Source of the DNA: Phycisphaerae bacterium
Lineage (GTDB): Bacteria > Planctomycetota > Phycisphaerae > Sedimentisphaerales > Anaerobacaceae
DNA length: 46,172 nt
Reading direction: 5' to 3'
Assembly (NCBI GenBank): GCA_012744475.1
Contig: JAAYBV010000028.1
Coordinates: 1 to 46,172 of the forward strand
Shown here piece by piece: positions 1,169-11,819 of this stretch. Within the stretch, counting starts at the first letter, position 1; each line of letters begins with the position of its first letter. Made by a program: the position numbers and the translations under genes. Below the pieces are notes generated by a model, which did no database searches, was not told the DNA's origin, and worked only from the letters and a program-made list of their open reading frames with translations.

Positions 1169-1270
1169 GTCAGCATGCGGAGTTTGAGATCGAATACGCG
1201 CGAGAAACAGTGGTCCCGTGTCGGGCGGCTGGAATCCGACCTCAACCCGCCTTTGGGGGTCCGGACCTGC

Positions 1271-2077
1271 ATGGGCCAGACGTGTTTTCGTGCTGTTTGC
1301 GTCCTTTCACTGGTTGTGGCCGGCTTCCAGGCATCCGCCGCGTCGGCGATGGTCACCGCTCGTGTCTGCCTGGCGGACGAGGTTACCCCTCTGGCCCCGG
1401 CCGATCCCAACGTGCCGGAAGTCTATCGCGACATCATGGTCGGAACCAGGCTCACGATTTTCATAACCTCCGACACCGCCAAACCTTGTCGCGTGAAGTT
1501 CTGGCTTTCCTGGGAGACCGAAAGACAGGGCGCTCTCTCTCCGAGGGGCTATGACGAGAGCATAGGAAACTACGTGGGCTCGTGCCTTCCCGCTGCCGGT
1601 GAACGGGCTCTCGTGACCATGTATCGAGACGATCTTGGTGTCGGCGTGGATCTACTCCCCGCCTGGAACGCGACGGCGGGCGATCTATTCATTCTCGACT
1701 ATGGCGCAGTGAACACCGGGGTCTGCACCATAGGGTTGTATGCTCTCTCTGCAGTTCCCATTCCGGTGGTGATCAGCCAGGAACCGCCCGATCCACCGCC
1801 TTTTGAAGCAACTCTGATCCAGGTCTTGTCTTTTCACCATGTTCCGTCGCGTGACTTCGATGGGGATACCCTGGTCAACTTCGTTGATTACGCCTCGTTG
1901 GCGGGTCTCTGGGGCCAGAGCGTTGTCTCGGACCCGAACGCGGCGGTCGCGGCGGATCTGAATGGGGATGAGCGGGTCGATGTCCGGGACTTGGCGCTGT
2001 TCGGCGAATATTGGCTCGAGCGGACGCAGGCAGTGGGGCTGTCGCCCGAGCCCAACGAGATAGATTCTGTGCCGTGA
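1271..2077 (+). CDS. Secreted protein with C-terminal type I dockerin
   Basis: The 268-aa product starts with a signal peptide (charged start, hydrophobic core CVLSLVVAGF, cleavage near ASAASA). The middle part (about residues 28-190) is a beta-rich domain I do not recognise. It is followed by a dockerin I at about residues 195-252 with two EF-hand-like calcium loops, DFDGDTLVNFVDYASLAGLW and DLNGDERVDVRDLALFGEYW. Dockerins bind cohesins, but in planctomycetes they are mostly found on secreted proteins without a classical cellulosome. The ATG at 1271 was chosen because it is the one directly in front of the signal peptide; an in-frame ATG at 1175 would add 32 Arg-rich residues and coincides with the predicted transcription start. 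It probably acts at the cell surface or outside the cell. Confidence 0.85.
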   Translation: MGQTCFRAVCVLSLVVAGFQASAASAMVTARVCLADEVTPLAPADPNVPEVYRDIMVGTRLTIFITSDTAKPCRVKFWLSWETERQGALSPRGYDESIGNYVGSCLPAAGERALVTMYRDDLGVGVDLLPAWNATAGDLFILDYGAVNTGVCTIGLYALSAVPIPVVISQEPPDPPPFEATLIQVLSFHHVPSRDFDGDTLVNFVDYASLAGLWGQSVVSDPNAAVAADLNGDERVDVRDLALFGEYWLERTQAVGLSPEPNEIDSVP

Positions 2078-2287: not shown

Positions 2288-4084
2288 ATGAAATTCGCGA
2301 GATCGGCATTGATTCTGTTTCTGGCATTGTGTACGACGGTCCCGGTACATGCCCAGAGTGCGCTGGAAAAGAGTGAAGCGCTGGAGATCATCGAGAAGCT
2401 TGCCAGTGGGGGCCGGGATACCTGGATTCCGGCCGGAACCATCAAGGCAGCGCATCGGGAGTACAAGGCTCCCAGAACGATGGACGAGGCGTTTATCACT
2501 CGGACAATTCAGGAGAAGACGAGCGACTACGAGACGACGGCCGACAAGGCCCAGCGGAGCGAGGAACTCCAGAAAATGTACCTGGAGGCCATCCCATTCA
2601 ACGTTCGATATGAACTGTCCAACGAGTCCAGCATGACTTCATCAGTTGTGCTCAAGTACGATGGGGACCGGTTTCATTGGGAAGTGGTGATCTTGTCGCG
2701 CAGCGATTCGGTTACCCCGTCGGCCGACCTGTCCGGCAATTACATGGCCAGGTACTTCAACCAGGATTGGAACAGCCGGCGGGTCTTCGCCTGGGACGGG
2801 CGGGAATATACGATTCATGCCGTCTCGGCCGGTGAGGCCATCGTTGATGCGAGCAACCGGCTGCCTCGCGTCGTCGGCGGTCCGTTGACCGCAGGCGTCA
2901 TCCCGTGGGGGTCCGGCCCGCTGTCCTCCGAGGATCTGGCGGCCGCGAAGATCGCAGCCAGCGAAGTCGCTCGCGATGGAAGCAGGCAGATAGAGCTGGT
3001 CATCGCGCCGTCGGGCGGTTCGCAATGGACCTTCGTCCTGGATCCGTCGAAGGACTATGCCGTGACGTCCGCCGTCATGCCGAGGGGTGACATCGTGACG
3101 TCCATCGGCTGCTCCGGCTACCGGAATGTCGGCGGGTATTGGGTTCCCAAGTCGGTCGCGATCGAACAGCGAGACGCCTTCACCAACCGGTTGCTCCGAT
3201 CCGACGAGTGGGATTTCACCTCCGTCGACGTCGGTTCTCCGGGGGTCGAGGCGTTCAAAGTGGCGTTCGGCGCCGGCACCGCCGTGGAGTATTACTCGCC
3301 GATGAGCGCCAAGGCATTGGTGTACAACTACTCCAACACGGTCGACACGGGTCTGCTGCTGGCCGAAAGACTGACCTACGCGGCTTGCCAGGACAGGCAG
3401 CCTCAGAATTGCGCCACCGCCTCGCTCCGGTACGCAACAGCGCAGTTGGGCAAGGTCCCGGCAGACAGTCAACTGGGCGAACTGGTCGATTCGGACGGGC
3501 GCACGACACTATACGACATCCGGCAGTGCGCCCAGGGTCTTGGTCTGCATTGTCGTGCCGTGCAGGCAGACGTCGCCGCCTTCGAAGAGAGTCTGAACGG
3601 GTGCCGGGCGATTCTCCACATCCCTGGACAAGACCATTTCGTGGTCCTGGACCACGTCGACGATCGGTACGCCTGGATTGTCGATCTGGCCGGCGACAGG
3701 TTCTACTCCCGAACGGATAAACGCTTCTTGTCAGACGAGTGGTCCGGGGTTGCCTTGCTGGTGTCGAATCAGCCTGTGACAGGGCGGTTCACGGACGTTG
3801 CAGATGATGCGCTGCGCGGCATCAGCGGCGGAGCCGGCTGGAGTTGCACGATGAAGATTCAGGACGAGTACGTCATTCCGTGCGAGTCCGCTGCAAACGG
3901 ATACGGCTGCTATGGCTACTTCCAGTGGTACTTCGAGCGATGGGGCTGCGAGGAAGCTCCGAGCGGAAGTTGTAAGACAGGCATTCTGGCGTGCATGGCC
4001 GGCAGCGACTGCTATTGGGAGATTACTGGCGGCTGCCGGGTGACCGGCGTCTGGGACTGGTATGGCATGAGCGCGTGCAATTGA
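2288..4084 (+). CDS. Secreted C39-like cysteine peptidase with Cys-rich C-terminal tail
   Basis: The 598-aa product has a signal peptide (residues 1-22, cleavage after VHA) and an N-terminal part (about 23-340) rich in beta strands that resembles the LolA-like surface domains common in planctomycetes (weak assignment). A peptidase C39-like domain follows at about 360-495: Cys375 in NCATASL, His450 in QDHFVVL and Asp466 in WIVDLAGD give the papain-like triad. After it, Gly514-Gly515 precede an 83-residue tail with nine Cys and many Trp and Tyr. C39 domains normally cut bacteriocin precursors after a Gly-Gly, so the tail may be a processed cargo; that is inference. The start is firm: AAGGAGG lies 6 bp before the ATG. 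A pseudopilin gene follows after 101 bp on the same strand. Confidence 0.8.
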   Translation: MKFARSALILFLALCTTVPVHAQSALEKSEALEIIEKLASGGRDTWIPAGTIKAAHREYKAPRTMDEAFITRTIQEKTSDYETTADKAQRSEELQKMYLEAIPFNVRYELSNESSMTSSVVLKYDGDRFHWEVVILSRSDSVTPSADLSGNYMARYFNQDWNSRRVFAWDGREYTIHAVSAGEAIVDASNRLPRVVGGPLTAGVIPWGSGPLSSEDLAAAKIAASEVARDGSRQIELVIAPSGGSQWTFVLDPSKDYAVTSAVMPRGDIVTSIGCSGYRNVGGYWVPKSVAIEQRDAFTNRLLRSDEWDFTSVDVGSPGVEAFKVAFGAGTAVEYYSPMSAKALVYNYSNTVDTGLLLAERLTYAACQDRQPQNCATASLRYATAQLGKVPADSQLGELVDSDGRTTLYDIRQCAQGLGLHCRAVQADVAAFEESLNGCRAILHIPGQDHFVVLDHVDDRYAWIVDLAGDRFYSRTDKRFLSDEWSGVALLVSNQPVTGRFTDVADDALRGISGGAGWSCTMKIQDEYVIPCESAANGYGCYGYFQWYFERWGCEEAPSGSCKTGILACMAGSDCYWEITGGCRVTGVWDWYGMSACN

Positions 4085-4185: not shown

Positions 4186-5004
4186 ATGCAGGCCATGAGG
4201 TTCCGAGGTCTCACGCTCGTCGAGCTGCTTGTCGTCATCGCGGTCATCGCGATGCTGGCGGCGCTGCTGTTGCCGGTCTTCCACAGCGCTCGCGAGCAGG
4301 CCAGGGCGACGGTGTGCCAGGCGCACATTCGCGAGCTGGCCATCGAGTTCCATCAATACGAGACGGAACACGAGATGCTCCCGTACGGCATCTGGACCAT
4401 GCGGCCGCCTCCGCCCGGGGGATATGTTTGCGATTCCCGGTACGATATGCCGGGCTGGTACTGGCCGAACTTCATCGGCGCGGTTCGCCACCAGTCACGG
4501 CGAGACAGGAAGATTCTGGAGTGCCCATCAAGACGCCTGCGGGAGTCGGGATTGTCCGACGACGTTCTGTGGGGCAACTACGGCGTCAATCGGTCTCTGT
4601 GCCGCAGCGCCGCCGACATCGCTCCTTACCGCCAGGGGTTTCCGGGACCTCCGCTGTCGACGAGCGAGATCCGTCACCCGGGCTCGACCCTTCTGCTCGT
4701 TGACAGCGGATATGCCCTCATCTGCTGGTGGGATGTCACGGCGGAGCCTCCCAAGCGCTACTCCGGCAGCTTGCCAATCGGCACGGCGTATATTCCGGGC
4801 CTGGCGATCAACGCGGACAGGGAATTGCTGCCTGCACAGATCGATGACGCCATCGGCGGGCGGCACGCCAATAAGACCGTAAACGTCGGGTTCGCCGATG
4901 GGCATGTCGACCGCATGCAGGCGTCCGCATTGGGAGTAGAGGCAACCGGCGACGGGGACGAGACGATGTACCACAACCGGGCCCCTCTGTGGGAGCCCAG
5001 GTAA
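4186..5004 (+). CDS. Type II secretion / type IV pilin-like pseudopilin with H-X9-DG C-terminus
   Basis: The 272-aa product starts with a type III signal: MRFRG, then LTLVELLVVIAVIAMLAALL. Prepilin peptidase would cut after the Gly and the Glu at position 5 of the mature protein is present. The C-terminal VGFADGHVDRM is the H-X9-DG-type ending of planctomycete prepilin-like proteins (TIGR04294/DUF1559 class). Family members are abundant in planctomycete genomes and are taken to form cell-envelope pseudopili. Two in-frame ATGs (4186 and 4195) precede the signal; neither has a well-spaced ribosome-binding site. It sits downstream of the C39-like gene and ends 7 bp from the convergent anti-sigma gene. 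Confidence 0.85.
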   Translation: MQAMRFRGLTLVELLVVIAVIAMLAALLLPVFHSAREQARATVCQAHIRELAIEFHQYETEHEMLPYGIWTMRPPPPGGYVCDSRYDMPGWYWPNFIGAVRHQSRRDRKILECPSRRLRESGLSDDVLWGNYGVNRSLCRSAADIAPYRQGFPGPPLSTSEIRHPGSTLLLVDSGYALICWWDVTAEPPKRYSGSLPIGTAYIPGLAINADRELLPAQIDDAIGGRHANKTVNVGFADGHVDRMQASALGVEATGDGDETMYHNRAPLWEPR

Positions 5005-5011
5005 GCCGGCG

Positions 5012-6679
5012 TTACTTTGCCGACAGCAGTGCCTGACGACGCGTCTCGATCTCCTCTTCATCCGGATACTCGTACAGAGTCGTCTGCACATGCCAGTCAT
5101 CTGTGGCAGATACCCATGACGAGAATTCCTGTCGGAGAGGAAGCCTCGTGACGGGATCGACATAGAGCCGAAGCCTTCTCGGCAGCGAAGTGCCAGTATC
5201 GGGCGCTTGATCCCAGGCCAGCTCGTATATTTCGAGTCCGACATCCGCCGGCGAAGAGGCCCCCGGCTGAAGGACCAGCTCTGCGTCCAGCGGGGCGCTG
5301 TCCAGTGAGAATTCCAGGAAGCGACACGCCGAGCGCTCGATGGTTTCACGTTCGTCGCTGTCCAGTTCCGCGTACTCGAACGCACCACGCCCGGACGGGA
5401 TGATCGTCGTCTGACCGCTGCGCAAATCGTGAATCATCTGCTCCGACGCCTGCTCGGAGATGACCAGCCCTGCGGCGCGCGAGATCCACAACTGCCGGAT
5501 CGGCTCGGACTTGCCTTCGCCAAAGACCGACACGTGCACGGTCCGGGCCTTGGCAAGAACACGGTCGACCTGGCGGATGCTCAGCGCGGACGCCGCCGGC
5601 AGGCTCCGGACGAACAGAACCGCCAGCGGGATCATCGCCGCCGCCAGGAAAGCGATCCTGGCGAGCGGATCGCTTGCCGTTCCGGAGACGCGACGTTTCA
5701 GACGGCCTGCGATTCCGAGAGACTTCGAAGCAACCGCCATGTTGCGACGAGGGACCTGGACGTCGAGCGGGCAGATTTCGGAAGAGGTCATCCGTGCGTC
5801 GTCGAAAGGCATTTCCGCGTAGTCTTCCGGGGCGTACACCGTGGTGACGCCGGAATCGGCCCGCTCGGCAATGTCCGCGACGACGCGATGAATCTGCTGC
5901 ATTCTCTCCAGGCACAACGGACAGGAACGGATGTGCTCGCGAAGGGCCTGTTGCCGTTCCGTCCGGAAGAACTCAGGCCGCAGCCCATACGGAACGGCCC
6001 AATCCAACAAATCGGACGTTGTGATCTGTTCGCATACTGACAACCTGGTCTGGGGCTGCGAGAGCCGAGCGTGGTCGAGAAGATGCTGCCGGTGGCGATA
6101 CACCTCGCGGCGGCAATGCGCGCACGTGCACACGTGGTCGAGGATCTCCGGTGACATGCTCTCAGGCGAGAGCAAGGCCAGAGCAGCCGCATGCGACCGT
6201 GCTCGCAGGCACAGGCAGGGGTCCTCCTGTCGATGCGGCTCCAGGAGCGCCCCCAGGCGGGCCAACCGCTCGGCGTCAAGATCGAGCTGCCTGAGCGATT
6301 CGAGATCCTTCGCACAGGCGGCACATTGGTCGACGTGAACCGTGATTGGCGTCGGTATCCGGATCCTCACCGATGGAGACAGAAGGCGGCACAGAAACGG
6401 CTTAACCTGCGCGCAGACAAGCGGCTCGTCGACGTACTCGAAATGCGACTGGAGTTCATCGATGAGTTGCAGATCCCCTTCGGCCGGTGTCGGCTGCGGA
6501 CGCCGGTCCAGGTCGCACAACGCTTCACGAAGTGACTGTACCCGGCCTTGGCAGTAGGCGCACCGGTCAATATGGCCTGCTACAGACCGCGGAACGGAAG
6601 GATCCCGTGGATCCTGGAGATAATCATGGTAGTACGCTTCCGCCTCTCGACACGACTCGCTTCCGTCGAATGCAACCAT
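5012..6679 (-). CDS. Membrane anti-sigma factor-like protein with four HxxxCxxC zinc-finger modules
   Basis: The 555-aa product has four repeats of the anti-sigma zinc-finger signature HxxxCxxC: H36/C40/C43, H115/C119/C122, H182/C186/C189 and H249/C253/C256. The first three have a Cys about 25 residues before the His, as in zf-HC2 domains. A single membrane helix lies at about 342-360, and roughly 195 residues beyond it should lie outside the membrane. It starts 9 bp after the ECF sigma gene, the classic sigma/anti-sigma arrangement, so it most likely holds that sigma factor at the membrane. Four tandem zinc fingers are unusual, since most anti-sigma factors of this type have one. The extracytoplasmic part resembles LolA/MucB-like sensor domains only loosely. 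Confidence 0.8.
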   Translation of the reverse strand: MVAFDGSESCREAEAYYHDYLQDPRDPSVPRSVAGHIDRCAYCQGRVQSLREALCDLDRRPQPTPAEGDLQLIDELQSHFEYVDEPLVCAQVKPFLCRLLSPSVRIRIPTPITVHVDQCAACAKDLESLRQLDLDAERLARLGALLEPHRQEDPCLCLRARSHAAALALLSPESMSPEILDHVCTCAHCRREVYRHRQHLLDHARLSQPQTRLSVCEQITTSDLLDWAVPYGLRPEFFRTERQQALREHIRSCPLCLERMQQIHRVVADIAERADSGVTTVYAPEDYAEMPFDDARMTSSEICPLDVQVPRRNMAVASKSLGIAGRLKRRVSGTASDPLARIAFLAAAMIPLAVLFVRSLPAASALSIRQVDRVLAKARTVHVSVFGEGKSEPIRQLWISRAAGLVISEQASEQMIHDLRSGQTTIIPSGRGAFEYAELDSDERETIERSACRFLEFSLDSAPLDAELVLQPGASSPADVGLEIYELAWDQAPDTGTSLPRRLRLYVDPVTRLPLRQEFSSWVSATDDWHVQTTLYEYPDEEEIETRRQALLSAK

Positions 6680-6688
6680 CCCTATCCC

Positions 6689-7228
6689 TCATTCAATTGC
6701 ACAAATTCTCCTCAACTGCCTCAGCGCTGCGGCCAGATAGTAGCTGACAGTCCGCCTGTCAACGCCCATCACGCGCGCGATCTCCGAGATGCTCCGATCA
6801 TCCTGGTACCGCATAACGACAGCCTGCGCCTCTCTCTTGCGCAAATGGCGGGTCAGGCACGCGAGCGCGGCATCGCCATCACCTACTCCCAGGAAAGCGT
6901 CCGCCGGTGCCTCTTTGTGGATGGAATTCCGAAATTCTTCGGCAAGTTTTTCAAAATGTTTTCGCTGGCGGGCCTTCTGCCGCGCCGTATCGACAATATC
7001 GTTGGCAATAGCCCGATAAAGATAGCTCTTGACGTTCTCGACGTCTGGGGGCATGGGCCTGCTCACCAGCGAGAGAAACAACTGCTGATACAGGTCATCT
7101 TCCTGAAACTCATTTTTGGCCTGGAAACGAATGACGGCGCGAATGAACGCGCCGTGTTGATGGAAGAGAGCCCACGCCGCATCGACGGCTGCTTTTCCAG
7201 AGATGCCGTTCTGAGAGTATTCTGCCAC
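6689..7228 (-). CDS. ECF-type RNA polymerase sigma factor
   Basis: The 179-aa product has region 2 (about residues 20-90, with DLYQQLFLSLV and YLYRAIANDIVDTARQ) and a region 4 helix-turn-helix (EAQAVVMRYQDDRSISEIARVMGVDRRTVSYYLAAALRQL). I chose the GTG at 7228 because GGAG stands 10 bp upstream and because a consensus promoter (7292-7319) lies between it and the in-frame ATG at 7324, so the longer version could not be translated from that transcript. It is followed after 9 bp by its presumed membrane anti-sigma factor. Targets are unknown; the convergent C39-like and pseudopilin genes are candidates by position only. Confidence 0.88.
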   Translation of the reverse strand: MAEYSQNGISGKAAVDAAWALFHQHGAFIRAVIRFQAKNEFQEDDLYQQLFLSLVSRPMPPDVENVKSYLYRAIANDIVDTARQKARQRKHFEKLAEEFRNSIHKEAPADAFLGVGDGDAALACLTRHLRKREAQAVVMRYQDDRSISEIARVMGVDRRTVSYYLAAALRQLRRICAIE

Positions 7229-7291
7229 CGTTTTCTTGCTCCAAACCCCTCTCGGACCGCAATGCGAAGAACATGCATCACGACCGGGCCC

Positions 7292-7319
7292 ATTATAGCA
7301 GAAGGCTCGACGATTGCAA
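7292..7319 (-). promoter_or_regulatory. Consensus promoter of the ECF sigma/anti-sigma operon
   Basis: On the minus strand TTGCAA (7314-7319) is followed after 16 bp by a perfect TATAAT (7292-7297). The expected start is near 7285, giving a leader of about 57 nt before the GTG at 7228. It argues for housekeeping rather than purely self-activated transcription. Confidence 0.8.
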
Positions 7320-7461
7320 GCCAAAGGCTATGAAGACCTTCCGATAATAGACGGCGCGAGTCAGCCGAACCATGGTGCCTTGTCCTCCTATTAGCATCGT
7401 CCTGGCTCCAAGCAGGACATAAGTAGAAATACGTAGATTTCCGACCTTGTCGCGAAAGCCC

Positions 7462-7716: not shown

Positions 7717-9447
7717 ATGTCGTCTGAGCACCCTGCCTCGGCCGAACCGGCCGCACCTCCAGTCTGCAAAACCGGTGCCCAAGTTGTTGTCGATGCATTA
7801 CTTGCGCATGGTGTCGACACCGTTTTCGGCTACATCGGCGCCTCCGTGCTGCCTTTGTTCGATCGTTTGCACGCAGCGCCGATTCGTTTCGTCGTACCCT
7901 GTCACGAGCAGGGCGGCTGCCACATGGCCGACGCCTACGCCCGTGCCAGCGGCAGGACGGGCGTTGTTATCGCCACCAGCGGACCCGGCGCGTGCAATCT
8001 CGTTACGGGTCTGGCCACCGCGATGATGGATTCGGTCCCGCTGGTTGCCATCACCGGGCAGGTCCGAACCGACCTGATCGGCGGCGACGCCTTCCAGGAA
8101 GCCCCCATGGTCGGGATCACCCGTCCCGTCACGAAACACAACTACATCGTCAAGGACATCAAGGACCTGGCTCGCACGATCCACGAGGCTTTCTACATCG
8201 CCTCGACCGGTCGGCCCGGCCCGGTCCTGGTCGACCTTCCTGTGGACGTCGAATTCGCCGCATGGCAGTCTGACGCTACGGCTCAAATCCATCTGCCCGG
8301 CTACAAAGTCCGCACCGTCGGCGATGCGACACAGATCACCCGTGCCGCCGAAGCCATCGATCGGGCTCAGCGCCCCGTCCTCCTGGCCGGTGGCGGAGTC
8401 ATCAGCGGCAACGCCACAGGCGAGCTGAGAGAGCTGGCCCGCAGGGCCAACCTGCCCGTCGCCATGACGCTGATGGGACTGGGCAGCTACGAGCAGACCT
8501 TGCCCGAGTCGCTGGACATGCTCGGCATGCACGGAACCGCGTACGCCAACTACGCGGTTCAGGAGTGCGACCTTCTGATCGCCGTCGGCGTGCGGTTCGA
8601 CGACCGCGTCACCGGCGACGTCAGGAGCTTCGCTCCCAAGGCCCGGGTGATTCACATCGATATCGATCCGGCGAGCATCGCGAAGAACGTTCGGGTGGAC
8701 ATCCCCATCGTGGGCGACGCCAAGACCGTCCTTTCGGGGCTGGCTCGGCACGTCAGGTTCGGTGAGAGGGCCGCATGGTTCGCGCAAATTACTGCATGGA
8801 AGGACGCGTGGACCCCGGACTTCGATCGCGTGGCGTCAGCAATCAAGCCGCAGTACGTTATCGAGGAATTGTGCCGGCGCACGGACGGCGAGGCCGTCAT
8901 CACCACCGGCGTCGGACAGCACCAGATGTGGGCCGCTCAGTTCTACCGGTTCCGGCGAGGCCGGCAACTGATCACCTCGGGCGGCCTGGGGACGATGGGC
9001 TTCGGCCTTCCGGCCGCCATCGGCGCGCAACTGGCCCGGCCCGAGGCCACGGTCATCGACATCGACGGCGACCACAGCTTCAACATGACGCTGTCCGAGC
9101 TGTCGACGGCCGTCCAGGCCCAGCTCCCGATCAAGATATGCATCCTCAACAATGGATACATGGGGATGGTTCGCCAATGGCAGGAGCTGTTCTACGATCG
9201 GCGTTACGTTCACAGCCGCGTGAGCAACCCGGATTACGCCGCGTACGCTCGGGCGGTCGGCGCGACAGGGATCACGGTGGACGCCAAGGCCGATGTCGGC
9301 GCCGCGATAGATCGAATGCTGGTCGAGAAAAAACCCTGCATTGTTGATTTTCACGTCGAGGCCCATGAGAATGTCTGGCCAATGGTCCCGGCCGGCAAGG
9401 GCCTCCACGAGATGCAAGGGCTGCCGTTGCCTGTCGCCGCCGTGTAG
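7717..9447 (+). CDS. ilvB: Acetolactate synthase large subunit, first copy
   Basis: This thiamine-diphosphate enzyme condenses two pyruvates to acetolactate, or pyruvate and 2-oxobutyrate, in Val/Leu/Ile synthesis. The 576-aa product has the full three-domain layout: an N-terminal PYR domain with Glu64 in HEQGGCHMADAY (cofactor-activating Glu), a central FAD-type domain with GRPGPVLVDLPVDV and RFDDRVTG, and the C-terminal PP domain with the metal site GDHSFNMT and LNNGYMGMVRQWQ. Most homologues read EQGAAH where this one reads EQGGCH. An AAAGGA box stands before the ATG. A second copy of equal length follows after 125 bp, and the small subunit ilvN follows that. Confidence 0.93.
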   Translation: MSSEHPASAEPAAPPVCKTGAQVVVDALLAHGVDTVFGYIGASVLPLFDRLHAAPIRFVVPCHEQGGCHMADAYARASGRTGVVIATSGPGACNLVTGLATAMMDSVPLVAITGQVRTDLIGGDAFQEAPMVGITRPVTKHNYIVKDIKDLARTIHEAFYIASTGRPGPVLVDLPVDVEFAAWQSDATAQIHLPGYKVRTVGDATQITRAAEAIDRAQRPVLLAGGGVISGNATGELRELARRANLPVAMTLMGLGSYEQTLPESLDMLGMHGTAYANYAVQECDLLIAVGVRFDDRVTGDVRSFAPKARVIHIDIDPASIAKNVRVDIPIVGDAKTVLSGLARHVRFGERAAWFAQITAWKDAWTPDFDRVASAIKPQYVIEELCRRTDGEAVITTGVGQHQMWAAQFYRFRRGRQLITSGGLGTMGFGLPAAIGAQLARPEATVIDIDGDHSFNMTLSELSTAVQAQLPIKICILNNGYMGMVRQWQELFYDRRYVHSRVSNPDYAAYARAVGATGITVDAKADVGAAIDRMLVEKKPCIVDFHVEAHENVWPMVPAGKGLHEMQGLPLPVAAV

Positions 9448-9572: not shown

Positions 9573-11303
9573 ATGCCATCGAATTCGCCTGATTCGGCCC
9601 CCGTTGCCGAGAACTTGCCGGAACGCACCGGCGCCCAGATTGTCGTCGATACGCTCGTCGATCTCGGGGTCGAAGCCATGTTCGGCTACACCGGCGGAGT
9701 GGTTCTGCCGCTGTTTGACCGGCTCTACGACGCCCCGATCCGATTCTTCGTCCCGCGGCATGAGCAGGGCGGCTGCCACATGGCCGACGCCTATGCCCGT
9801 GCCAGCGGCAAGGTCGGCGTGGTTCTGGCCACCAGCGGGCCCGGCGCCTGCAACCTGGTCACCGGTCTGGCAACCGCGATGATGGATTCAATCCCCATGG
9901 TGGCCTTCACCGGGCAGGTCCGCACCGAGTTGATCGGCAACGACGCCTTTCAGGAGGCCGACACCACGGGGATCACCCGGCCGATCACGAAGTACAACTC
10001 CATCGTGAAGGACGTCCGGGACTTGGAGCGTACGATTCGAGAGGCGTTTCACATTGCCTCGACCGGGCGGCCCGGGCCGGTCCTGATCGACCTGCCCGTC
10101 GATGTCGAGGTCAACAGGCATCGCGGCAATGGAAGAGCCGAGATCGACCTTCCGGGATACAAGATCCGCACCAAGGGCCATGCCCGGCAGATCTCGACGG
10201 CGGCCGAGGCGATCAACATGTCGGAACGTCCCGTGCTGTACGTTGGAGGCGGAGTCATTATCGCCAACGCCGTCGAGGAGCTGCGTGCCCTCGCCGAGAA
10301 GGCGCATCTGCCCGTGACGATGACGCTGCTCGGATTGGGAAGCATCGACCAGAGGCATCCCGAGTCGCTGGACATGCTCGGCATGCACGGTTCAGCGTAC
10401 GCCAATTACGCGGTCCAGGAATCGGACCTGCTGATTGCGGTCGGCGCCCGTTTCGACGATCGCGTCACCGGCAAACTCAGCACATTCGCGCCGAATGCGA
10501 AGATCATCCACATCGACATCGACCCGACCAGCATCTCCAAGAACGTCCACGTCGACATCCCGGTGGTCGGCGACGCCAAGCATATCCTGACGGAACTGAC
10601 CAAGGAGGTCAAGCATCGGCCGCGCGAGGCGTGGTTCGCCCGGATCGCCGAGTGGAAGAAGAAGTTCCCCTTCAAATATGACGGCAACTCGGGTCGGATC
10701 AAGCCGCAGTACGTGATCCAGGAGCTGTGCCGCCAGACGAAAAACGATGCCATTGTTGCGACGGGCGTCGGTCAGCACCAGATGTGGGCGGCGCAGTTCT
10801 ACCGGTTCATCAAGCCTCGCCAATTCATCACCTCCGGCGGGCTGGGCACGATGGGCTTTGGTCTGCCGGCGGCCATCGGCGCGCAGATCGCCAGGCCGGA
10901 CGCCACCGTCATCGACATCGACGGCGACCACAGCTTCAACATGACCATGACCGAGCTGGCGACCGCGGTCCAATACGAGCTGCCGATCAAGGTCTGCCTC
11001 ATGAACAACGGGTACATGGGCATGGTGCGCCAATGGCAGGAGCTGTTCTACGGCCGGCGCTACGCCTGTAGTTATCTGAAGAACCCCGACTATGCCGCCG
11101 TCGCCCAGGCTATGGGCGCGGTGGGAATCACCGTAGACAAGAAAGAGGACGTCCCCAAGGTCATCGAGCGGATGCTCGCGGAGAAGAAGCCTTGCGTGGT
11201 GAACTTTCACGTCGAGGCCGAGGAGAACGTCTGGCCGATGGTTCCGGCGGGCAAGAGCCTCAGCGAAATGGATGGCCTGGATATTCTCGAACGACTCATC
11301 TAA
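9573..11303 (+). CDS. ilvB: Acetolactate synthase large subunit, second copy
   Basis: The product is also 576 aa and aligns with the upstream copy from end to end without obvious gaps. It keeps Glu64 in HEQGGCHMADAY, RFDDRVTG, and the metal site GDHSFNMT with MNNGYMGMVRQWQ. Both ends differ most (N-terminal 15 residues and the C-terminal tail). AAAGGAG precedes the ATG. The ilvN start follows after 27 bp, so this copy is the one most tightly coupled to the regulatory subunit. All catalytic signatures are intact in both copies, so neither looks like a pseudogene; whether they form mixed enzymes or have different substrate preference cannot be told here. A short hairpin (GCTC-GGG/CCC-GAGC, 9448-9469) separates the two. 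Confidence 0.93.
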   Translation: MPSNSPDSAPVAENLPERTGAQIVVDTLVDLGVEAMFGYTGGVVLPLFDRLYDAPIRFFVPRHEQGGCHMADAYARASGKVGVVLATSGPGACNLVTGLATAMMDSIPMVAFTGQVRTELIGNDAFQEADTTGITRPITKYNSIVKDVRDLERTIREAFHIASTGRPGPVLIDLPVDVEVNRHRGNGRAEIDLPGYKIRTKGHARQISTAAEAINMSERPVLYVGGGVIIANAVEELRALAEKAHLPVTMTLLGLGSIDQRHPESLDMLGMHGSAYANYAVQESDLLIAVGARFDDRVTGKLSTFAPNAKIIHIDIDPTSISKNVHVDIPVVGDAKHILTELTKEVKHRPREAWFARIAEWKKKFPFKYDGNSGRIKPQYVIQELCRQTKNDAIVATGVGQHQMWAAQFYRFIKPRQFITSGGLGTMGFGLPAAIGAQIARPDATVIDIDGDHSFNMTMTELATAVQYELPIKVCLMNNGYMGMVRQWQELFYGRRYACSYLKNPDYAAVAQAMGAVGITVDKKEDVPKVIERMLAEKKPCVVNFHVEAEENVWPMVPAGKSLSEMDGLDILERLI

Positions 11304-11330: not shown

Positions 11331-11819
11331 ATGAAACACATAATCAGTGCTCTCGTCGAAAATAAGCCGGGCGTCCTGGCCCATGTCGCAGGGATGTTCG
11401 CGGCACGCGCGTTCAACATCGATTCGCTGGTCGTCGGACGCACCGAGGACCCCGACCTCAGTCGCATGACGATCGTCGTCATCGGCGACGACAAGGTCCT
11501 CGAGCAGGTGCGAAAGCAACTGGCCAAGATCGTTCCGGTCGTCAAAGTCCAGGACTTCACCGATCAGCCGGTGGTCGCGCGCGACCTCATGCTGATCACG
11601 GTTTCGGCGCCGCCGGAGAAGCGGCCGGAGATCTTCCCGCTGATCGAGATGTTCCGAGGTCGGGTCGTCGACATCGGCCTCAAGTCCATCATGGTCGAGG
11701 TCAGCGGACCCGAGACCAAGATCGACGCGTTCATCAACGTCTGCAAGCCCTACGGCATCAAGAGTGTCGCGCGGACCGGGACTATCGCCATGCCGCGACA
11801 GGGCAAGGGCGACATGTAA
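11331..11819 (+). CDS. ilvN: Acetolactate synthase small (regulatory) subunit
   Basis: The 162-aa product begins with an ACT domain: ISALVENKPGVLAHVAGMFA, then FNIDSLVVGRTEDPDLSRMT (residues about 4-77). A typical IlvN C-terminal domain follows, with MLITVSAPPEKRPEI and FRGRVVDIG. The family binds valine at the ACT dimer interface and stimulates the large subunit while giving it end-product inhibition. The length matches the usual 160-170 aa. It follows the second ilvB by 27 bp and is clearly in the same operon. Confidence 0.95.
   Translation: MKHIISALVENKPGVLAHVAGMFAARAFNIDSLVVGRTEDPDLSRMTIVVIGDDKVLEQVRKQLAKIVPVVKVQDFTDQPVVARDLMLITVSAPPEKRPEIFPLIEMFRGRVVDIGLKSIMVEVSGPETKIDAFINVCKPYGIKSVARTGTIAMPRQGKGDM

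Follow-up and report, generated by a model that had tools for sequence, protein, structure and literature searches.

The window analysed here, a 46,172-nucleotide stretch of contig JAAYBV010000028.1 from a Phycisphaerae bacterium, carries a gene whose product joins a C39 peptidase domain, a double-glycine type leader and a cysteine-rich C-terminal module (the cargo) in one chain of 598 amino acids (aa). Judging from sequence comparison, this gene is likely to encode a Sec-exported double-glycine precursor that processes itself: once outside the cytoplasm, the protein probably cleaves its own peptide from the chain, and we hold it to be quite likely that the C39 domain cuts at the leader of aa 501-515. 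A first-pass annotation of the window had already proposed a self-releasing secreted Cys-rich peptide, and the leader, the conserved Cys and one split locus described below speak for that proposal. The open reading frame (ORF), the catalytic residues, the Gly-Gly pair (GG) and the tail of 83 residues were found exactly as it had placed them. The features of the gene are:

2288..4084, forward strand: C39 - leader - Cys-rich cargo protein, 598 aa (ORF with PF03412 match)
2288..2353, forward strand: Sec signal-peptide-like start, aa 1-22 (by eye from the sequence)
2465..3343, forward strand: N-terminal part, aa 60-352, faintly DUF4292/LolA-like (weak family matches)
3389..3772, forward strand: Peptidase C39 domain, aa 368-495 (PF03412, E 1.9e-12)
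3410..3412, forward strand: predicted catalytic Cys375 (Cys in 50/50 rows of the homologue alignment)
3635..3637, forward strand: predicted catalytic His450 (His in 50/50 rows)
3683..3685, forward strand: predicted catalytic Asp466 (Asp in 49/50 rows)
3788..3832, forward strand: double-glycine type leader, aa 501-515 (homologue columns; consensus in PMC6959990)
3827..3832, forward strand: Gly514-Gly515, predicted cut after Gly515 (514 is G in 50/51 rows, 515 is G/A/S in 47/51)
3833..4081, forward strand: Cys-rich cargo, aa 516-598, with eight conserved Cys (homologue alignment)

Other proteins in which a C39 domain is followed by GG and a Cys-rich tail do exist. Matches were found in 54 of the 99 genomes searched (the window's own included), planctomycete metagenome bins among them, and the phmmer hits yielded an alignment of 51 near-full-length rows, counting the window. 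Ten loci were omitted: the duplicates L031 and L032, the other C39 proteins L060 and L061, and the partial or interrupted copies L029, L034, L050, L051, L055 and L059. Counts over 50 rows are these 51 minus L045, whose tail ends at a contig end; of the numbered alignments, A1 has 50 rows, A2 has 47 of the 51 (without L004, L008, L045 and L057) and A5 has 49 (without L004 and L008). At L055 (3799-4320, reverse strand, genome G002), the relative's gene copy ends in masked sequence beside an ORF that looks, by eye, like a transposase or integrase.

The leader consensus is given as L(-12)xxxE(-8)L(-7)xxxxG(-2)G(-1) (PMC6959990), positions -4, -7 and -12 are described as contacting the peptidase groove (PMC6959990, PMC6363468), and accepted cut sites include GG, GA and GS (PMC10885120). 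Counting Gly515 as -1, the window protein reads F-15, V-12, A-8, L-7, I-4, G-2 and G-1, which satisfies all five positions considered (hydrophobic at -12, -7 and -4, G at -2, and G, A or S at -1). The predicted cut site is thus a complete C39 leader, beyond the plain GG of the first-pass annotation, and it is internal to the protein rather than the N-terminal leader of a small precursor. Across the 51 rows the aligned columns hold I (34), L (10) or V (7) at -12, L (42) at -7, I (45) at -4, G (50) at -2 and G (23), A (17) or S (7) at -1. Counted ungapped from column 514, L, I, V or M stands at -12 in 50/51 rows, at -7 in 44/51 and at -4 in 49/51, followed by G at -2 in 50/51 and G/A/S at -1 in 47/51, so that the GG is kept among homologues. 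All five positions are satisfied in 36 rows and at least four in every one of the 51, and the linker residues between these columns vary.

The strict motif [LIV]x4[LM]x2[ILV]xG[GAS] occurs in the linker of 34/51 rows, the linker-wide count used here (a narrower distance filter gave 25/51). In 1000 rounds of shuffled linkers it occurred in 0.09 rows on average and in 2 of 51 at most; the rows are homologues, not 51 independent events, and their relatedness weakens the shuffle probability. Because mean pairwise identity of the leader is just 33.7%, the pattern looks held by selection. Models of known GG leaders gave weak matches to single members (TIGR04149, E 0.0028, and TIGR01847, E 0.023, each in 1/50); Bacteriocin_IIc matched weakly in 3/50 (best E 0.11) and ComC in 1/50.

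In the enzyme that would read this leader, PF03412 matches aa 368-495 with 47.6 bits against a curated cut-off of 22 (E 1.9e-12), and it is the sole Pfam family up to E 1 within the 598 aa. The Cys-His-Asp triad called in the first-pass annotation is whole in 49/50 rows, and when aligned with C39 domains of known structure its residues coincide with the catalytic positions. The window protein aligns with the ComA peptidase domain across aa 372-496, which places the leader right behind the C39 fold; the family profile covers nearly the whole of the solved ComA domain and most of the PCAT1 and LahT domains. Columns equivalent to PCAT1 residues give mixed support for a leader-docking peptidase: by hand count on the alignment, the A55 equivalent (column 408) is L or M in 50/50 rows and the G135 equivalent (column 487) is G in 45/50, and a third column is taken up below.

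The chain begins with MKFARSALILFLALCTTVPVHA followed by Q, a start that resembles a Sec signal peptide by eye, in line with the earlier annotation, and AAGGAGG lies shortly 5' of the ATG. Between this start and the peptidase, the N-terminal part gave faint DUF4292 matches in 11/49 members (best E 8.7e-4) and LolA_like matches in 2/49 (best E 0.061); the window's own row matched neither of the two, and a PDB comparison of this part gave no match.

The tail carries nine Cys, at 520, 532, 541, 554, 562, 569, 575, 583 and 597, and is aromatic-rich as described earlier (15/83 residues, 18%, vs 10% in the whole protein). At eight of these nine positions, 49-50 of 50 rows have Cys; position 569 has it in 1/50, the window's own row. 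The nine-Cys module of the first-pass annotation therefore becomes an eight-Cys module plus one private Cys, and the Cys pattern itself is shared by the homologues. Mean pairwise identity is 38.3% for the cargo, 39.4% for the N-terminal part and 43.7% for C39, so the cargo evolves about as fast as the N-terminal part and somewhat faster than the peptidase. No convincing relative of the tail was found in Pfam, NCBIfam or PDB, where the best matches were, respectively, an unrelated DUF (E 0.022), a model of GG leaders (E 0.0028) and a sorting nexin taken as chance (E 0.13). PHROGs gave weak matches at most (best E 0.0084), and no known toxin domain was found in Pfam and NCBIfam scans.

Within the order, the tail profile matches 82/161 genomes, of which 75 list one match and seven list two. 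The open frames that hold these matches are mostly about 450 to 790 aa long, and those inspected carry C39. In 392 genomes of the phylum, a C39-plus-tail profile matched at least 22, seven of the order at full length and 15 outside it over the C39 part (12 of the 15 being ABC transporters by eye), and in 384 phylum genomes the tail profile matched at least seven, six within the order and one outside; in many of these genomes 6 (C39-plus-tail) or 13 (tail) candidates were scored, and sensitivity is limited. The single tail match outside the order is chance-like (E 0.0065, three stops). A search for stand-alone tails gave none that was convincing in 61 genomes: the candidate of G032 belongs to a gene truncated where its contig stops, that of G031 is a contig-end piece, and that of G034 (E 0.04) contains stops.

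The 161 genomes also held a few tail matches in short frames, namely contig-end pieces in G032, G031, G537 and G037, one with stops in G085, and one split locus. The latter, on contig 198 of G506 (L143), has two small precursor ORFs upstream of a C39 protein that lacks the tail, being 466 aa long from its ATG and ending a few residues past the C39 domain. Each precursor has a signal-like start (by eye), a leader, GG and a Cys-rich cargo, with F-15, I/V-12, E-8, A-7 and V/I-4 ahead of the GG (hand count). The precursors match the tail profile with E 4.4e-12 and 5.7e-8 in a two-sequence search and with 1.2e-9 and 1.4e-5 in the ORF set of the locus; at genome scale the first one reaches E 1.4e-7. 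The same genome also carries the fused form (L146). Across the 161 genomes, a two-row profile of the split precursors matched strongly in G506 only; in five other genomes it gave E 9e-5 to 0.01, two of these matches falling on fused tails and three having stops. In 298 genomes of the class it matched none, an empty result that is uninformative by itself. Additionally, a fused protein of G492 has a cargo missed by the tail profile and a leader reading L-12, E-8, L-7, I-4 and GG (hand count).

The gene lies in a recurring island of five genes, in which the C39 protein is accompanied by a dockerin protein, a pseudopilin and convergent anti-sigma-like and sigma genes. Its neighbours in the window are:

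1175..2077, forward strand: protein ending in dockerin type I, recurring upstream neighbour (PF00404, E 1e-5)
4195..5004, forward strand (start ATG 4186 or 4195): pseudopilin (N_methyl PF07963 and DUF1559 PF07596)
5012..6679, reverse strand: anti-sigma-like protein, 555 aa, convergent, recurring neighbour (weak NCBIfam TIGR03988)
6689..7324, reverse strand: extracytoplasmic function (ECF)-type sigma factor, recurring neighbour (PF08281, E 1.1e-12)

The sigma factor also matches PF07638 (E 3e-4, just above cut-off). The anti-sigma-like protein gave a weak TIGR03988 match (E 7.9e-4, 19.5 bits vs a cut-off of 62.5) and none in a Pfam scan; hhalign of the N-terminal part of the C39 protein against it found no link (Probab 0.13 on a scale of 100).

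ORFs were clustered around 53 loci, and rates refer to loci with enough flank. The pseudopilin gene noticed behind the C39 gene in the first-pass annotation has a same-strand counterpart downstream in 40/50 loci, or 41 counting the window, which was lost to an overlap filter. The convergent anti-sigma-like gene is present in 37/41 loci, the sigma gene in 30/35, and an upstream family including the window's dockerin protein in 36/49; the upstream cluster is a loose single-linkage group, several members of which show no dockerin by eye. Because 15 DUF1559 matches are spread over the 5.7 Mb of the window's genome (counting the DUF1559 family only), an adjoining pseudopilin in most loci is hardly due to chance. 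Moreover, an ORF of another planctomycete family (L100, 1426-3066, forward strand, contig 41 of G184) fuses a C39 domain to what looks by eye like a complete pseudopilin, which we see as a second sign of coupling between C39 peptidases and pseudopilins in the phylum.

Taken together, these data suggest the following course of events. The Sec machinery would export the chain, given its signal-like start, and the C-terminal module, with its eight conserved Cys, could fold in the oxidising periplasm with up to four disulfides. The C39 domain would then bind the leader directly behind it through -12, -7 and -4 and cleave after Gly515, either in its own chain or in an adjacent one, which would free a cysteine-rich peptide of about 83 residues that may act at or beyond the outer membrane. 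Since a pseudopilin recurs next door, a type II secretion-like pseudopilus might export, carry or display the peptide, a step that we regard as possible and rather doubtful. Outer-membrane channels do exist in the window's genome, as its 13 secretin matches in 11 open frames indicate, none of them tied to the island. The recurrence of the sigma/anti-sigma pair suggests that expression is regulated by it. More tentatively still than the cleavage, the island as a whole may represent one order's dedicated system of peptide release by the Sec route, with a C39 protein that cuts itself in the periplasm and hands its disulfide-rich peptide to a cassette-specific pseudopilus, its own ECF sigma/anti-sigma switch and a dockerin surface partner.

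Several observations weigh against this picture. In classical C39 peptidases a Gln, which the Pfam score does not count as defining, stands six residues ahead of the catalytic Cys. That column is Q in 1/51 rows, and some Q falls within C-7 to C-2 in 42/51; for LahT, Gln21 is reported 4.3 A from the oxygen and the oxyanion role of this Gln is questioned (PMC6363468). The column equivalent to PCAT1 I59 (412) is K or R in 41/50 rows by hand count. Two AlphaFold models (window protein, L031 and L032 only) have predicted local distance difference test scores of 30.8 and 32.1, too low for either to be of use. As for the leader, the window protein has A at -8, -1 is M, L, L or T in 4/51 rows, -2 is A in one row and 7/51 rows have no hydrophobic -7. 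The scans that yielded GG-leader models also gave unrelated weak matches of similar size: among the 14 Pfam families of the tail scan the unrelated DUF4987 ranked first (E 0.022), and two of the four NCBIfam families were enzyme models. The split form occurs in 1/161 genomes, no second split locus being found among them; its precursors have A at -7, and the Asp column reads Gln in its C39 protein, so that the activity of the split enzyme is uncertain. Finally, 10/50 loci have no clustered pilin downstream (the window among them by the filter artefact) and 13/49 have no member of the dockerin-containing family upstream.

Could the enzyme work on another protein instead? The C39 domain might act in trans, for instance on the pseudopilin or the dockerin protein, its own leader-like segment being an attached pseudosubstrate or regulatory tail. 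Placed right behind the enzyme, the leader could fill the groove, a pseudopilin recurs next to the gene, and FapD is presumed to have a different Fap protein as its substrate (PMC5557850). However, -2 and -1 remain cleavable (G, then G/A/S) in most rows, and a pure built-in inhibitor would not predict a split locus with separate leader-cargo precursors, so we consider this explanation unlikely.

It is quite improbable that the Cys-rich module serves a secreted protease for substrate binding or anchoring and is never released, with the leader likeness reflecting a structurally constrained linker helix. Tail and enzyme do stand nearly always on one chain, and the cargo is conserved about like the N-terminal part, but the conserved linker columns are those of C39 recognition while the residues between them vary, the two parts are separated in G506, and in G492 a diverged cargo follows an intact leader. 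Equally improbable is an antibacterial bacteriocin or microcin. Precursors of class II bacteriocins do look similar, with their GG leader and small Cys-rich product, but this cargo is kept across an order (a single match being listed for 75 of the 82 positive genomes), is not hypervariable, and has no ABC transporter or immunity gene among the neighbour families identified (the 14 largest clusters, most of them unannotated, with no specific search for immunity genes).

Double-glycine leaders are best known as cytoplasmic signals read by C39 peptidases bound to a transporter. In the family described here, this leader code is found on a chain that is apparently exported and that also contains the enzyme, and the arrangement is conserved in many genera and linked to a pseudopilin. 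Like the peptidase-containing ABC transporters (PCATs) ComA, PCAT1 and LahT, the window protein has a C39 domain and a leader hydrophobic at -12, -7 and -4, with G-2 and G/A/S-1, and as in PCAT precursors the cut, predicted here from sequence, would free a C-terminal cargo. Unlike PCATs, it has no transmembrane and ATPase domains after C39 and the enzyme has a signal-like start, and unlike PCAT precursors, it carries leader and cargo on the enzyme's own chain, downstream of the C39 domain. In a review of papain-like families, PF03412 is presented as a domain joined to ABC transporters (PMC10318531).

C39 peptidases outside ABC transporters include FapD, which belongs to the Fap amyloid system of Pseudomonas (PMC5557850), and NapP, encoded in the gonococcal nap island (PMC11798529). 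FapD, with a Sec signal and activity in the periplasm, is a precedent for a Sec-exported C39 peptidase (PMC5557850); the nap island comprises a C39 peptidase, GG peptides and a FapF-like channel, with no ABC transporter named in the passages cited (PMC11798529). Unlike these systems, in which candidate substrates are encoded by separate genes and FapF or NapF is the channel, the window protein has its candidate substrate in cis and a pseudopilin as neighbour; it scores 17.2 bits against the FapD model NF058616, far short of the cut-off of 330. Polymorphic toxins also place a peptidase on the same chain as a C-terminal module possibly freed by it, but their survey counts Tox-PL-C39 among the toxin domains themselves (PMC3482391). 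A search of the open-access literature, to the exclusion of subscription papers, turned up no natural fusion of a C39 peptidase with a leader and cargo of its own. If our interpretation is true, C39 processing would be decoupled from ABC transport, leader recognition would gain a one-gene model, and a product could be assigned to one of the uncharacterised planctomycete DUF1559 pseudopilins.

Two further C39 matches occur in the window's genome. The first (L104, 1372-3060, reverse strand, contig 26) is a C39 protein in a 239-codon frame with a lipoprotein-like start, and adjoins an ORF resembling an outer-membrane beta-barrel (by eye), a pairing like that of Fap and Nap. The second (L106, 730-1911, forward strand, contig 24) lies in a 394-codon frame with membrane-like stretches ahead of the C39 domain. 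In the window itself, beyond the island, two tandem ORFs of 576 aa on the forward strand (7717-9447 and 9573-11303) resemble, by eye, paralogous large subunits of acetolactate synthase, and are followed by a small-subunit-like ORF at 11331-11819.
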